Part shown: in pieces, positions 1 through 5,862 of the stretch
Layout of the letters: the number at the start of each line of letters is the position of its first letter
How positions within the stretch are numbered: the first letter of the stretch is position 1
From: Bacteroidota bacterium
Lineage (GTDB): Bacteria; Bacteroidota; Bacteroidia; JACCXN01
Direction of reading: 5' to 3'
Length of the DNA: 5,862 bases
Assembly: GCA_013696965.1 (NCBI GenBank)
Contig: JACCXN010000075.1
Coordinates: forward strand, 1 to 5,862
Program-made: the position numbers and the translations under genes
Notes under the pieces: generated by a model
The model's input: the letters and a program-made list of their open reading frames with translations, nothing else
What the model was told of the DNA's origin: nothing
Databases searched by the model: none

Positions 1-13
1 ACGCCCCTTTTTT

Positions 14-140
14 GCTACGAAGAATACAGGGCTACGCCCCTTATGCTACGGTAATAATGGGGCGTAGCCCTAAAATCTCCGTAGAAAAACAACGAAAATT
101 TAAAAAACAGGGGCGTAGCCCTGAAATCAGATTGAGCCTA
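14..140. repeat. Long repeat unit, copy 1 (about 127 bp)
   Basis: This stretch is nearly identical to 297-424. It begins gctacgaagaatacaggg and contains one forward core (28-40) and two inverted cores (59-71 and 110-122). It ends in a shared tail, tgaaatcagattgagcc. The copies differ by a few substitutions (for example ctccg against cttgg near 77-81) and a one-base change in an A-run. Both units have the same orientation, so they are direct repeats that could recombine and delete the tandem units between them. Confidence 0.88.
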
Positions 141-176
141 TGGTATGATTAGGAAAGATATCAGGGCTACGCCCCT
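102..176. terminator. Second terminator-like palindrome, possibly bidirectional
   Basis: Positions 109-124 and 161-176 are perfect 16-bp inverted complements separated by 36 bases. On the minus strand the structure is followed by a run of six T (107-102). On the plus strand the right arm runs into five T (176-180, the first inside the stem). The inner copy alone (108-123) repeats the short hairpin plus T-run seen at 384-407. It could act as a backup terminator. The long loop weakens the case for the 16-bp stem. Confidence 0.35.
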
Positions 177-310
177 TTTTATCTACACATACATTTTGCT
201 ACGAAGAATACAGGGCTACGCCCCTTTTTATCTACACATACATTTTGCTACGAAGAATACAGGGCTAACGCCCCTTTTTAACTACACATACGTTTTGCTA
301 CGAAGAATAC
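163..310. repeat. Tandem array of three 49-50 bp units
   Basis: Three head-to-tail units start at 163, 212 and 261, with periods of 49, 49 and 50 bases. Each holds the palindromic core, a T-run, a segment containing actacacatac or tctacacatac, and gctacgaagaatac. Units 1 and 2 are almost identical. Unit 3 has an extra A inside the core and a few substitutions. The fourth core, at 311, begins the second long unit. A shortened version of the same unit, lacking the acacatac segment, is visible at 1-27. The pattern suggests slippage or unequal crossover within the cluster. Confidence 0.9.
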
Positions 311-424
311 AGGGCTACGCCCCTTATGCTACGGTATTAATGGGGCGTAGCCCTAAAATCTTGGTAGAAAAACAATGGAAATTAAAAAAAACAGGGGCGT
401 AGCCCTGAAATCAGATTGAGCCCA
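297..424. repeat. Long repeat unit, copy 2 (about 128 bp)
   Basis: Second copy of the unit at 14-140, in direct orientation, offset by 283 bases and then by 284 after a one-base insertion in the A-run near 384-391. It has a forward core at 311-323 and inverted cores at 342-354 and 394-406. It lies closest to the 3' end of the kinase gene on the minus strand and contains the best terminator-like structure in the window. Confidence 0.88.
384..407 (-). terminator. Probable intrinsic terminator of the kaiC-kaiB-kinase operon
   Basis: Read on the minus strand, 407 to 392 is cagggctacgcccctg. It can fold as a 5-bp CAGGG/CCCTG stem with a 6-base loop, or alternatively as GGGC/GCCC with a 3-base loop. 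Eight T residues follow at once (391-384). It lies about 90 nt past the kinase stop codon, the right place to end the operon transcript. The stem is short, so efficiency is uncertain. The structure is an inverted copy of the repeat core, so the repeat itself seems to supply the terminator. Confidence 0.55.
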
Positions 425-498: not shown

Positions 499-2277
499 TT
501 AAGAGTTGGGCTGATGGTCAGCTTTTCCAATTGGTAAGGTAAAATGAAAAGTAGTTCCTTTTCCCACCTCACTTTCAACCCAAATCTTTCCTTTATGTTT
601 TTTAATAAAGTCTTTTACAAGAATTAAACCCAAGCCTCTAGATTCGTCCTTTTCAGGTTCTGAACTGTTTATGGCAGATTCATAGCTAAATAATTTTTCT
701 CGATTCTGGTCAGACATTCCAATACCTGTATCCTTTATTGAAATCTGAATAAACGAATTCCCTTTTTTAAGAGCAGAAGCTATAATTCTGCCACCCTTTG
801 GTGTAAATTTGATAGAGTTTGTTATAAGGTTTTGAAAAATTGACCTTATTAAAAACGGGTCAACCCGAACCCGAAACGATTTATCCACTTCATTAATAAT
901 TTGTATCTCTTTTTGTTTAGCATTTTCTTCTATGAGTTCTGTTGACAGGGAAACTAATTCATATAAATTTCTGTTTTGAGGGTCGAAGTTTATTTTTTTT
1001 GATTTTTGTTTTGACAATTCTACAAGCTCGTTTAGTTGATTGACTATTTTAACCGAAGAGCCATTGATTATTTTAGCTAAAATTTCTATTTCTTCTTGTT
1101 TAAGAGATTTAATATCGGTCATCAAAATTTCAGAAGTAGCAATAATTGAAGTAAAAGGATTTCTTAAATCGTGTGAAATAATAGAAATAAATTTGTCTTT
1201 AGACTTTGTGGCTTTATCAAGTTCATAATTAATTTCTTCAAGTCTGTCATATGCGGATTCTAAAACTTTAGTTCTTTCAATTACTTTAAATTCCAGTTCC
1301 TGATTAAGATTTGTTATTTCCTGCTGGGCTTTAAGTAATTTTTTATTTTGGTCATAATGTTCTCTCTCAGCTTTTAATATTGCCGTAACGTTTTGGCTGG
1401 TACCTATGAACTGATAGGCTTTGCCTTTTTTTAAAATTACTTTGCCTTTTACATGAAGGATTTTTTTTTCGATCTCCGCTGGAGTGTTGATACTGGTGAA
1501 AAAATCAAAGGAGCCGGTTTCTTTAACTGCAGTGTCGAAAATTTCTTTTGATGCTGCCCGGTCATTTTGATGAATTAAATCATAGGGTGTTAATGTCAAT
1601 GAGCTTTTATCAGTCAATCCGTATATTTTATAAAACTCCGGGGATACTGTTATCTCTTTTGTTTTCAGGTTCACGGTCCAGCTGCCCATTTCCGCTATTT
1701 TTTCCGCTTCCTCGAGCAATTTTTTTTGTGTTATTAATTCTTCCTGGTGTTTTTTAATATTGGAAATATCTGTTATGATAAGGTTAAAAACACTTTTGCT
1801 TTCCAGACTCAATGTATTTATTGATATCAGGACAGGAATACTCTTTTGGCCCCGGGCACCGATGTAATATTCATCCTTTGCCGGATTCATTTTGCTGTCA
1901 TTTAACAGATTTTCAAACCTGGATTTTGAGGGGGCTTCAATATAATTTATAAAATCATTTCCTATAATTTTTTTAAGGGGAGCGTTCACCATTTCAGAGA
2001 AACAGGAATTACTGAAAAGGATAATTCCATCCTCATTAAGGGTAACAGCGCCTTCATGCATTTTTTCCATTAAAAGACGGTAAATTTTATCCGCTGAGCT
2101 TTCTGTGTAAATTTTCCGGGATTTTCCTTCCTTAACAACAAGTGCATCAACATGCCCGGCTTTGATTGCTTCAATGAAATTTCTGGCCTCCTGTAATTTA
2201 AGCAAATGGTTAGCATTTTCTTTCTTTACATTTTCCAGTTCCTCTTTAAGTTCTATGATGTTTTTCTCCATGTTCAT
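499..2277 (-). CDS. Soluble PAS-PAS sensor histidine kinase, probable KaiBC output kinase
   Basis: A 592-residue cytoplasmic histidine kinase: no signal peptide or membrane segment is visible. An N-terminal helix (about 1-40) leads to the motif AIKAGHVDALVV and then a first PAS domain (about 65-175, with EGAVTLNEDGIILFSN). A short helix precedes a second, PAS_3-like domain (about 190-302). A coiled coil follows (about 305-360). The HisKA H-box SHDLRNPF carries phospho-acceptor His369. The HATPase_c domain has an N-box NLITNSIKFT (Asn483, Asn487), a G1 box DTGIGM (516-521) and a G2 box RGLGLIL (547-553). All catalytic motifs are intact, so it should autophosphorylate. There is no receiver domain, so a separate response regulator is needed, and none is in the window. 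The ATG lies 5 nt after the kaiB stop, arguing for co-transcription and coupled translation. Unlike cyanobacterial SasA, it has no KaiB-like domain. A direct link to KaiC or KaiB is inferred from gene order only. Confidence 0.95.
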   Translation of the reverse strand: MNMEKNIIELKEELENVKKENANHLLKLQEARNFIEAIKAGHVDALVVKEGKSRKIYTESSADKIYRLLMEKMHEGAVTLNEDGIILFSNSCFSEMVNAPLKKIIGNDFINYIEAPSKSRFENLLNDSKMNPAKDEYYIGARGQKSIPVLISINTLSLESKSVFNLIITDISNIKKHQEELITQKKLLEEAEKIAEMGSWTVNLKTKEITVSPEFYKIYGLTDKSSLTLTPYDLIHQNDRAASKEIFDTAVKETGSFDFFTSINTPAEIEKKILHVKGKVILKKGKAYQFIGTSQNVTAILKAEREHYDQNKKLLKAQQEITNLNQELEFKVIERTKVLESAYDRLEEINYELDKATKSKDKFISIISHDLRNPFTSIIATSEILMTDIKSLKQEEIEILAKIINGSSVKIVNQLNELVELSKQKSKKINFDPQNRNLYELVSLSTELIEENAKQKEIQIINEVDKSFRVRVDPFLIRSIFQNLITNSIKFTPKGGRIIASALKKGNSFIQISIKDTGIGMSDQNREKLFSYESAINSSEPEKDESRGLGLILVKDFIKKHKGKIWVESEVGKGTTFHFTLPIGKADHQPNS

Positions 2278-2282
2278 AATAC

Positions 2283-2609
2283 TTAAATGATTTGCAATTC
2301 TTTCAAAACCTTCTCCGTATCCGACAAATCTCCAATAAACCTGACAACGGGTAAGGGGAGTAGTTTTATCAATAGGGGAATAGCAATTATTTCCTCAAGG
2401 AGCGCAAAGTCAGGCTGCTGATAAATATCAATAATTTCTAACTCATACCTGCCTTTGAGATATTTTTCGCAGATGGATTTAATATTTACAACAGCATGGG
2501 AAGAGTTTGGGTGTATGCCTGAAATGTATAAATTAAGAATATATTTTTCTTCCGGGGGGCCTTTGGGACCTTCATTAATATCAATATTTTCCCGAGTTTT
2601 CTTCGCCAT
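2283..2609 (-). CDS. kaiB: KaiB, fold-switching clock/timer protein
   Basis: A 108-residue KaiB family protein with a thioredoxin-like fold. In characterised systems KaiB switches fold and binds the CI ring of phosphorylated KaiC. Visible family signatures are the first strand YILNLYISG (23-31), the SICEKYLKGRYELEIIDIYQQP block (45-66) and IKLLPLPVVRFIGDLSD (81-97). A charged, probably disordered N-terminal extension of about 22 residues precedes the first strand; cyanobacterial KaiB has only a few residues there. The C-terminus stops at about residue 93 of the cyanobacterial protein, so the last segment is missing. The conserved Gly and Asp of the GLD motif are replaced (ELQ, 104-106). The start is fixed by an in-frame TAG immediately upstream of the ATG. 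There is no Shine-Dalgarno sequence at normal spacing. It sits 67 nt after kaiC and 5 nt before the kinase gene. Confidence 0.96.
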   Translation of the reverse strand: MAKKTRENIDINEGPKGPPEEKYILNLYISGIHPNSSHAVVNIKSICEKYLKGRYELEIIDIYQQPDFALLEEIIAIPLLIKLLPLPVVRFIGDLSDTEKVLKELQII

Positions 2610-2676
2610 CTAATTGAGTTTTTTCAAATAATTCTTATACAGTAAAATTTTTTTTATCCTCCTTCCTTCTGATTCA
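2610..2676 (-). other. kaiC-kaiB intercistronic gap with a misplaced aaggagg
   Basis: This gap of 67 nt is the widest in the operon. On the minus strand, just after the kaiC stop, it reads ggaaggagg (2666-2658), a strong anti-16S match. However, it lies about 49 nt upstream of the kaiB ATG and has no ATG, GTG or TTG at 5-10 nt. It therefore does not explain kaiB initiation. No stable hairpin is evident. It may be a chance purine run or a remnant of an earlier start. Confidence 0.4.
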
Positions 2677-4152
2677 TTATTTTTTTGATCTGATTTTTTC
2701 ACGAAGCCTACCCTCTTTTTTTGGGATAGCCTCAAGGGAAATTCCATTATTTGAAATAGTAATTTTTTTCACACTCCTGGAATGGCCCATTCCCCTTGCT
2801 TTCAGAACGGTCAGCGTCCTATTGCGTTGCCCTTGCGTTTCTGCATCCTCAACCATGATCCACGTATCAACCAGGGATGAAATTCCCTCATCGCTTGGAT
2901 TTCGTTCAATTAATTTCTCTGTAATTGCGGCTGTAAATATTACGGTTATCTGCTCCAGTTTTAAGTAATCTACAAACAGGGTAAGCATTAATCGAACACT
3001 GCTGTTTGGGTCTTCGTTCATTAAATTGGTAATAGGATCAATGATGACTATAGCCGGTTTTAATTTTTTAATTACTTCCTTGATGGAAATAAAATGCAAT
3101 TCAAGATTTTGTAAAGTAGGCCTTGAATAGTAAAAATGTAAAAATTCTGATTTAACCTCTGGCTCAAGATCAATTCCTATGGAATTCATATTCCTTATAA
3201 CCTGGTTGGGTGCTTCTTCGAAGGCACAAAAAAGAACCTTTTTCTTTTCTATGCATGCATTTTTTGCAAAGGAGGTTACAATGCTTGTTTTTCCTGTTCC
3301 GGCTGTTCCTGATACAAGAATACTGCTTCCAACATAAAAACCTTTTTTATCCAGCATTTCGTTCAAATCTTTAATTCCGGTAGAAATAATTTTTGAACTT
3401 ATCTTGTGCTGGATTATTTCACTTATTATTGGGAAAACTGTTATGCCATTTTCTTCTATAATGAAGGGGTATTCATTGTTTCCGTGAAGTGTTCCCCTGT
3501 ATTTTACAATTCTTAAGCGCCTGGTGGACACCTGGTCTTTAACACGGTTGTCCAGCAATATTACACAATCAGCCACATATTCTTCCAGGCCGTGTCGCGT
3601 GAGAAAGGTGTCTCCAATTTCAGCGGTAATTATCGCAGTTACCTTCTTTTCTTTTAACCAAATAAAAAGCCTTTTAAATTCTGACCGGAGCGTCTTGTAG
3701 TCCAAACCATAAAAAAGTGTATCCAGGGAGTCCAGAACCACCCGCTTTGCTTTAACTTTGTTTATTGCTTGTTCAATCCTTACGAAAAGTCCTTCAATAT
3801 TATATTTACCAGTTTCTATTGTTTCATCGCTATTAATGATCTGTACATGTTCAAGATAAATTTTATTGTTACCAAGATGCGTTTCAAGATCATAACCAAG
3901 GGATTTAACATTTACCATCAATTCCTCGATTTTTTCCTCAAAAGCCATAAACACAGCAGGTTCATCAAACAACGTGATCCCGTTCACCAGGAACTCCATT
4001 GCCATCAGCGTTTTTCCACAGCCTGTATTCCCCAACAATAATGTAGGTCGGTTTTTGGGTAACCCACCCATTGTTAGATCATCCAGCCCTTTGATTCCGG
4101 TAGGGGATTTGGGAAGGGTGCCAGGAAAATTTGTTTTATTTATCTTTTTCAT
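2677..4152 (-). CDS. kaiC: KaiC, circadian-type ATPase/autokinase (KaiC2-like)
   Basis: A 491-residue protein with two tandem RecA/DnaB-type KaiC domains; the family forms double-ring hexamers. CI (about 12-245) has Walker A GNTGCGKT (41-48), catalytic Glu72-Glu73 (FMAFEEK), a Walker B-type strand RVVLDSLD (137-144) and the KYRGTLHGNNEYPF block (217-230). CII (about 252-478) has Walker A GTAGTGKT (282-289), Glu312-Glu313 (FCAFEEAP), AIVIIDPIT (367-375) and KARGMGHS (451-458), which supplies the Lys/Arg that reaches the neighbouring subunit. By alignment, Synechococcus Ser431-Thr432 correspond to Ser425-Ser426 in DEGISSLVDT, and Thr426 to Ser420. Autokinase activity is therefore expected, with a Ser-Ser pair. 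The C-terminal tail is short and basic (EGRLREKIRSKK), without the long KaiA-binding tail of KaiC1, and no kaiA is nearby. The first ATG fits the family N-terminus. It is the first gene of the operon. Confidence 0.97.
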   Translation of the reverse strand: MKKINKTNFPGTLPKSPTGIKGLDDLTMGGLPKNRPTLLLGNTGCGKTLMAMEFLVNGITLFDEPAVFMAFEEKIEELMVNVKSLGYDLETHLGNNKIYLEHVQIINSDETIETGKYNIEGLFVRIEQAINKVKAKRVVLDSLDTLFYGLDYKTLRSEFKRLFIWLKEKKVTAIITAEIGDTFLTRHGLEEYVADCVILLDNRVKDQVSTRRLRIVKYRGTLHGNNEYPFIIEENGITVFPIISEIIQHKISSKIISTGIKDLNEMLDKKGFYVGSSILVSGTAGTGKTSIVTSFAKNACIEKKKVLFCAFEEAPNQVIRNMNSIGIDLEPEVKSEFLHFYYSRPTLQNLELHFISIKEVIKKLKPAIVIIDPITNLMNEDPNSSVRLMLTLFVDYLKLEQITVIFTAAITEKLIERNPSDEGISSLVDTWIMVEDAETQGQRNRTLTVLKARGMGHSRSVKKITISNNGISLEAIPKKEGRLREKIRSKK

Positions 4153-4529: not shown

Positions 4530-4562
4530 TTATTAACCAGTTGATAAATCCCTAATGAAAAA

Positions 4563-4674
4563 ATGAAACTTGTGGATAAACGATTTTATAGAAAACATAT
4601 GGGTGAAATATGGGTGGAAAGCAAACCAGGAGTGGGGCACTACTTTTAACTTCACTCTACCTGATGCTGAATAA
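4563..4674 (+). pseudogene. Relic of a histidine-kinase C-terminus (HATPase_c end)
   Basis: In broken frames this stretch encodes the typical last 35-40 residues of a sensor kinase. KLV lies at 4566-4574. Read one base later, DFIE (4582-4593) is followed by KHMGEIWVESKPGVG (from about 4594). After one surplus G near 4635 comes GTTFNFTLPDAE and a TAA at 4672-4674. At least two to three indels are needed, so it cannot be a working gene. Only the region after the G2 box remains; the H-, N- and G1 boxes are absent. Over the 27 residues from DFI to FTLP, 20 match the operon kinase (residues 556-582). It is probably the remains of another kinase of this type lying in the same orientation as the gene at 5055. 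Confidence 0.75.
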
Positions 4675-4820
4675 TAATTTAAAATCAGATATTTCATCTT
4701 TTCTGGGAGTGTAAATTAAACTGTGCTATTTAGTTTTATTATATTTGATTCATTAAGTAAAGCATAGTTGAGCAATGCTGGAGAGCAACTCAATAAGCAA
4801 TAGCTTAATCCGATAGCATG

Positions 4821-5054: not shown

Positions 5055-5862
5055 ATGGACACAAAAAGTAAATTATATGTTATTTCAAGGCCTATAATAT
5101 TGGTATTTGCCATTATTTCTCTTTTCCTTGTATTGTTTGGAATGATGAATTTGAACCACCTGAATAAGTTTGAATCAAATATAAAATACATCAAAGAAAT
5201 TTCTTTTGAACAATTAATCCTGCTCAATACGATTAAGCACAATGCCGGATTGAGAAAGCTAAACATATTGTATTATTTGTTCAGCCAAGATCCCATTTCC
5301 AAAGAGGTTTACAAAGGAAATATTCATAATTATCATGATGAAAATGAAGAACATTATAAAAAATTAAACACCTTAATAACAAATGAAACGATTAGGCAAC
5401 AATTTGATGTTGTTCAAAAATCAAGAGGTGAGTATAATTTAAAAGCAGTTAAAACAATTGAATTATTCAAGAGTGATACAGGCGTGAATCCGCTTGAATA
5501 TGAAAAAACAGAACTTAGGCCTGTTTATACTCATTACATCAAAAATTTAAATGACCTTTCAATACTCATTATAACCAATTCATCAGAAACCATCGCCGCA
5601 ACACAGGAAGCAGTGGATAACAACAAAAGAATCATATATTTAATGCTTATCATAGGAATCCTGATTATTCTATTTTCCGTGAGGACTTTAGCCCGGGTCG
5701 TAAAAAAATTGAAATCAGATTATTCCTTGCTATCCAAATCACAATCAGCGTTACAGGTTTTATATAATGAATCAGAAGAAGAAGTTCAAAAACGTACCAA
5801 AGAACTCGTTACATTAAATATGGAGCTATACAATTTTAAGGAAATTGTAGAATTATCCGATA
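5055..5862 (+). CDS. Membrane sensor protein with 4HB-type input domain, 3' end outside window
   Basis: An open frame of 269 codons from ATG to the window edge with no stop. The frame is closed upstream by TAA at 5031-5033, and this ATG is the first after it. Residues 13-31 form a first membrane helix and 193-209 a second. Between them lie about 160 mostly helical residues, as in the four-helix-bundle sensor domains of bacterial kinases and chemoreceptors (4HB_MCP type), probably periplasmic. After TM2 there is a basic HAMP-like or linker stretch, then a coiled coil (about 215-262) with EVQKRTKELVTLNMEL, typical before PAS or kinase modules. The last visible residues, FKEIVELSD, look like the start of a PAS domain. 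A histidine kinase is most likely, but the catalytic part is not visible; a diguanylate cyclase is possible. It is transcribed away from kaiC. No Shine-Dalgarno sequence is evident. Confidence 0.85.
   Translation, partial: MDTKSKLYVISRPIILVFAIISLFLVLFGMMNLNHLNKFESNIKYIKEISFEQLILLNTIKHNAGLRKLNILYYLFSQDPISKEVYKGNIHNYHDENEEHYKKLNTLITNETIRQQFDVVQKSRGEYNLKAVKTIELFKSDTGVNPLEYEKTELRPVYTHYIKNLNDLSILIITNSSETIAATQEAVDNNKRIIYLMLIIGILIILFSVRTLARVVKKLKSDYSLLSKSQSALQVLYNESEEEVQKRTKELVTLNMELYNFKEIVELSD

Follow-up and report, generated by a model that had tools for sequence, protein, structure and literature searches.

The order kaiC-kaiB-PAS kinase has been published for Rhodopseudomonas palustris (PMC4794148), an alphaproteobacterium in which these genes belong to a proto-circadian timekeeper with a suggested single promoter, as well as for Rhodobacter (Cereibacter) sphaeroides and Rhodospirillum rubrum (PMC5520375, PMC10931921), and the general non-cyanobacterial layout was described in a survey of kaiC contexts from 2011 (PMC3164672). 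In the closest studied system, that of R. sphaeroides KD131 (pRSKD131A), kaiC and kaiB are followed by an HWE-type kinase gene, the three genes being separated by 2 and 5 nt. The C-terminal tail of R. sphaeroides KaiC builds a dodecamer and drives dephosphorylation; an engineered coil-less KaiC forms a hexamer that is phosphorylated normally and shows only slight dephosphorylation (PMC10076222). With regard to KaiB, three prolines time its fold switch (PMC11551320), and a triple mutation that includes positions 68 and 83 flips the R. sphaeroides protein to the binding fold (PMC10808063). A published survey noted only KaiB2 and KaiC2 in Bacteroidetes; it also concluded that non-cyanobacterial SasA-like kinases have no KaiB-like domain and that there must be some other output (PMC5520375). 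Here we describe a kaiC-kaiB-PAS kinase operon on a 5,862-nt stretch from a Bacteroidota bacterium (contig JACCXN010000075.1, here C75; "the window" below), which is an entire contig of the host genome.

We read this locus, at a probability of roughly 45%, as a derived operon of the KaiC2 class with a signalling role, in which KaiC and a KaiB of a type that we call b act on the kinase more as a switch than as a clock. Two sets of observations carry this reading: the kinase starts with a module that, in the genomes tested, occurs nowhere but next to kai genes, and the clade to which the window belongs has lost parts on which the R. sphaeroides timer depends. The gene layout itself is already known, and the window represents a reduced variant of it.

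The operon and its relatives

The three genes lie in tandem on the minus strand, with 67 nt between kaiC and kaiB and 5 nt between kaiB and the kinase gene, and open reading frames (ORFs) were confirmed where the original prediction, made from the sequence alone, had placed them:

2677-4152, minus: kaiC, 491 aa; CI and CII RecA-like domains, without the C-terminal coiled-coil extension
2875-2880, minus: codons of KaiC S425-S426, by alignment R. sphaeroides S413/S414; the second site is Pro in a paralogue on contig C41
2283-2609, minus: kaiB, 108 aa; type b, the kinase-proximal type
499-2277, minus: PAS-PAS-HisKA-HATPase histidine kinase, soluble by hydropathy, 592 aa; phospho-acceptor H369
2062-2277, minus: module at the kinase N terminus, residues 1-72, with a long helix, a hairpin and a connecting helix (profile, predicted model)
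1762-2082, minus: first PAS domain, residues 66-172 (domain search, predicted model)
1399-1653, minus: second PAS domain (PAS_3), residues 209-293 (Pfam)
1003-1200, minus: HisKA domain, residues 360-425 (Pfam)
529-861, minus: HATPase_c domain, residues 473-583 (Pfam)
392-407, minus: terminator-like palindrome followed by T8, the first such site 3' of the kinase; weak, and also a copy of a repeat

The predicted identities of KaiC and KaiB hold, as Pfam KaiC matched twice (354.7 bits) and Pfam KaiB scored 77.8 bits against a cut-off of 27. Both KaiC domains have a Walker A motif (GNTGCGKT, 41-48; GTAGTGKT, 282-289) and an intact catalytic EE pair (72-73 and 312-313), and the phosphosite pair is Ser-Ser (S425/S426) rather than Ser-Thr, features that the protein shares with the KaiC2 subgroup. 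The kinase, predicted to be complete and soluble, has HisKA, HATPase_c and two PAS domains, with H369 inside the H-box; a hydropathy scan found no 19-residue stretch with a mean above 1.15, by which test it appears soluble and free of membrane-spanning stretches. As predicted, the operon stands without kaiA: KaiA (PF07688) gave no match above the Pfam cut-off in the host genome, which distinguishes the locus from a KaiABC circadian oscillator. No minus-strand terminator-like sites were found between the three genes; the terminator-like site at 407-392 lies 92 nt beyond the kinase stop.

Contig C41 of the same genome carries a second kaiC-kaiB-kinase operon, with identities of 72, 61 and 53% and gaps of 5 and 4 nt. 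Its kaiC (locus L014, 2530-3996) encodes Pro at the second phosphosite, which rules out phosphorylation at both sites. Contig C3 of this genome breaks off within a third kaiC (L015, 2-343). The order is well beyond chance, given this second operon and its recurrence in most relatives; a chance arrangement or mis-called ORFs could be rejected on these grounds and on those of the confirmed ORFs and domain matches.

Among 80 named KaiC relatives, 75 have a gene matching the kinase profile directly after kaiC and kaiB, as kaiC-kaiB-kaiB-kinase (50 loci), the same with a receiver (REC) gene added (13), with a single kaiB (7) or in further variants (5); one of the seven single-kaiB loci, L056, may hide a second kaiB in an ORF overlap. 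When Bacteroidota loci drawn by KaiB alone were added, such a gene lay just downstream in 105 of 114 kaiC loci, and kaiBC pairs regularly lacking it were not seen. Compared with the typical Bacteroidota kaiC-kaiB-kaiB-PAS kinase(-REC) operons, the window shares a related KaiC, the kinase-proximal KaiB, the module-bearing kinase and the gene order, but has neither the second, KaiC-proximal KaiB (type a), nor the long KaiC tail, nor an adjacent REC gene. A single-domain receiver gene lies upstream of kaiC in two Chryseolinea, in Ohtaekwangia and in one metagenome-assembled genome (MAG). No REC remnant was seen upstream of kaiC in the window, and the Ohtaekwangia REC query gave only weak matches in the host genome (best E 1e-8, 27%), with no clear orthologue of a cognate response regulator.

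Two side observations concern kai genes in other contexts. Three Bacteroidota genomes (L130, L158 and L128) have a kaiB that is flanked on one or both sides by kinase-profile genes but has no kaiC in its vicinity. In two distant Bacteroidota, stressosome-like genes (RsbR, RsbS/STAS and RsbT-like, named by eye) adjoin the kai operon (L020, 1490-4164; L017, 1965-4610).

The kai-only module of the kinase

SasA and the window kinase are both soluble HisKA kinases with a HATPase domain and a link to KaiC; SasA has a KaiB-like domain, in place of which the window kinase has a predicted coiled coil and hairpin. As anticipated in the original prediction, neither domain and profile searches nor the predicted model found a KaiB-like thioredoxin domain at the kinase N-terminus. 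The protein instead begins with a module of about 65 residues, a coiled-coil run followed by AIRxGxVDALVV...IYTLxxADxxYR, which precedes the first PAS domain. The AlphaFold2 model of this region shows no KaiB fold; it has a long helix and a hairpin of low confidence, after which a further helix links into PAS. A profile search of Pfam, NCBIfam and PDB yielded coiled-coil-like noise and no convincing family. Neither the module nor the division of KaiB into the two types described below was found in the literature searched, mostly outside subscription journals.

The module stands at the start of 104 of the 105 downstream kinase-profile genes of these kaiC loci (assigned in 89 by pattern and in 15 by eye). 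Across 395 Bacteroidota genomes, the module profile matched 29 places in 28 genomes, all of them within 275 nt of an independently found kaiB (29/29; Fisher p ~1e-36), and seven genomes carry kaiB without the module. Beyond Bacteroidota, specificity was assessed on 21 further genomes, all of which carry kai genes (Bacteroidota, Verrucomicrobiota, Nitrospirota, Planctomycetota, Chloroflexota and archaea), and on a plasmid collection. The former gave 19 places in 18 genomes, which match known kai loci save for two; of these, L172 is an additional kai locus of its genome and L171 a KaiB-fusion locus of Chloroploca; among 72,556 plasmids there were 11 matches, nine in Cereibacter sphaeroides, and the three that were opened (C. 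sphaeroides KD131, Pararhizobium and Rhizobium) are all kai operons. Kinase and kai genes are thus co-inherited, in line with the claim that they form one functional unit, and the module, never seen away from kai genes in the 395 genomes, stands out as the strongest candidate for a domain that docks Kai proteins in place of the KaiB-like domain of SasA.

The region after the PAS domain varies, and some Bacteroidales products end there, at 232-238 aa. The Chloroploca locus holds a PAS-PAS-KaiB fusion (7462-9153, minus) followed by a 1246-aa module-PAS protein (3700-7440, minus) with an HD-GYP-like domain, identified by eye, at its end, and kaiC is on a separate contig (L075); this arrangement supports KaiB and the module as a separable output unit. 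The module is a direct candidate for the missing output link, and it also occurs in R. sphaeroides, a biochemically tractable system.

KaiC and KaiB in the coil-less clade

The window KaiC shares 49-52% identity with three long-tail KaiCs from Bacteroidota and 72% with the C41 paralogue. Only 24 residues follow its last aligned block, as against 108-111 in long-tail KaiCs, and the C-terminal extension of about 50 residues that predominates in KaiC2, while not universal there, is missing. In the KaiC tree the window falls into one clade (support 100) with C41, two Chryseolinea, Ohtaekwangia, Flavobacterium, a Bacteroidales MAG, a Bacteroidetes MAG and three Chitinophagaceae MAGs. This clade is nested among long-tail KaiCs, its tails measure 24-56 residues, and each member has a single KaiB, of type b. 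Almost no variation is seen among 97 long-tail KaiCs in the NQVREF segment or in the aromatic residue (Tyr/Phe) at R. sphaeroides position 436; both have decayed in the tail-less clade. On alignment, then, the clade has lost both the C-terminal coiled coil and the residues that couple it to dephosphorylation, and its KaiCs resemble the laboratory coil-less R. sphaeroides construct as a natural counterpart. In the three Chitinophagaceae MAGs, a conserved protein of 146-152 aa is encoded after kaiC-kaiB (L025, 2744-3184; L026, 8803-9261; L027, 8847-9296).

KaiC-proximal (a) and kinase-proximal (b) copies in tandem-kaiB operons separate completely (86 vs 86). A careful tree places all type-a proteins on one side together with the KaiBs of R. 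sphaeroides, Synechococcus elongatus and Thermosynechococcus elongatus (81/94). The window KaiB sits within the b clade of Bacteroidota (100/96), grouped with its own kin (99/94), and is thus not of the canonical type a found in R. sphaeroides. R. sphaeroides positions 68 and 83 are hydrophobic in 87 of 87 type-a KaiBs, whereas type b is charged at position 68 in 43 of 87 and at position 83 in 49 of 87, so that many type-b KaiBs have substitutions similar to the ones by which KaiB is locked in the binding fold. The window KaiB has V88, K103 and E104 at the three positions of the flip mutation (68, 83 and 84), and its switch prolines P78, P85 and P87 are all present, as they are in nearly all KaiBs of both types. 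Its predicted model adopts the fold-switched form (core predicted local distance difference test score ~95), and its best structural matches are all fold-switched KaiBs; this is weak support for a fold preference, since deep alignments favour that form. Legionella KaiB (Lpp1115) and KaiB-TV4 have the same thioredoxin-like form (PMC10808063) that is predicted for the window KaiB, which represents a separate lineage and adjoins a two-domain KaiC.

A special closeness of type b to SasA was also considered and proved modest: the type-b profile reaches the SasA N-domain (E 2e-6 and 1e-5) and the type-a profile barely does (0.047), but each type-a and each type-b member, when scanned singly, matches a SasA model (best E 1e-6 against 2e-10). 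A strict rule by which tail loss equals loss of KaiB-a was rejected, as L151, L156 and L075 are tail-less with KaiB-a and L135-L140 are long-tailed with one KaiB; the coupling holds only within the window's clade.

Proposed switch, alternatives and flanking sequence

The original prediction of a self-contained timer is not supported, because the closest studied hourglass, that of R. sphaeroides, needs both a coiled coil and a fold-switching KaiB, and the window's clade has lost the KaiC coil with its coupling residues as well as canonical KaiB. A state switch is favoured since these timer parts are missing and the kinase with its kai-only module is retained; the clade would thus show KaiBC without its timing parts. 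In the mechanism we propose, KaiC, probably a single hexamer, would phosphorylate S425/S426 from ATP and, turning phosphates over poorly without the coil, would register energy or another state as its physiological input instead of running a cycle. The single KaiB-b, presumably largely pre-folded in the thioredoxin-like, KaiC-binding form, would bind the CI ring in one state of KaiC, thereby reading its phosphorylation and its bound nucleotide, and both proteins could then engage the coiled-coil/hairpin module of the kinase. Such docking, gated by the PAS domains, may set autophosphorylation at H369, whether up or down, with phosphotransfer to a putative single-domain response regulator.

Several observations weigh against this state switch. 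Loss of the tail and loss of KaiB-a coincide within one clade and thus amount to about one event, and other tail-less KaiCs (L151, L156, L075) retain KaiB-a. The window KaiB keeps all three switch prolines and has an uncharged Val at R. sphaeroides position 68, and AlphaFold2 tends toward fold-switched KaiB from deep alignments. The R. sphaeroides kinase has the module together with a type-a KaiB, so that type b is not a prerequisite for the module, and three tail-less Chitinophagaceae genomes (L025-L027) have no module kinase at all. KaiB-b as the sole partner of the module was a separate candidate, weakened by the R. sphaeroides pairing.

An hourglass of the R. sphaeroides type, in which KaiB slowly switches fold, binds phosphorylated KaiC and raises ATPase activity and dephosphorylation while the kinase reads the phase, would account for the gene order and kinase module held in common with KD131 (KaiA being absent and KaiC Ser-Ser in both) and for the retained phosphosites, catalytic residues and switch prolines. 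We nonetheless consider it improbable, as the coil and coupling residues are gone across the clade, canonical KaiB is absent and the C41 paralogue has Pro for Ser at the second phosphosite. The R. sphaeroides system has the coiled-coil tail, the dodecamer, type-a KaiB and an HWE-type kinase. Signals could also flow in reverse, with the PAS kinase sensing redox, oxygen or a ligand and resetting KaiC, and with KaiC and KaiB acting on targets of their own. For the R. sphaeroides kinase, published work has proposed that it provides redox input (PMC5520375, PMC10931921), the nearest folds of the modelled first PAS domain include heme and LOV sensors, and module-PAS is the constant piece, the half behind it being variable and sometimes no kinase; most copies, however, retain a full kinase, and REC genes often adjoin, which fits output. 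We regard reversed flow as unlikely. Less probable again is a regulator of stress or growth state that has no part in timing, a role that has been reported for KaiBC of Legionella: the stressosome-like genes flanking the L020 and L017 operons would suit it, as would the higher score of Legionella KaiB with the type-b than with the type-a profile (93 against 78 bits), a difference that could partly stem from the broader type-b profile.

Returning to the state switch, we also offer a wider and rather doubtful generalization. Beyond cyanobacteria the job of SasA might be split, a free, permanently fold-switched KaiB-b standing in for the KaiB-like domain and the kai-only coiled-coil module serving as receptor on PAS proteins (kinases, HD-GYP and others); the window's clade would have kept this output half together with a KaiC devoid of the coil, whereas the timer half, made up of KaiB-a and the coil, would have been lost.

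Outside the operon, palindromic repeats built around GGGGCGTAGCCC form an array at window positions 1-420, which includes a 49-bp tandem unit at 162-325. The genome contains 21 copies of the 13-mer AGGGCTACGCCCC, all of them on contigs C33, C59 and C75. On the plus strand, opposite to kaiC, positions 4560-4680 contain what is left of the C-terminus of a histidine-kinase ATPase (WGTTFNFTLPDAE), a short and degraded remnant, and positions 5055-5861, also plus, encode the start of another sensor protein that has a four-helix bundle (4HB_MCP_1) as its sensory domain and is cut off by the contig end.

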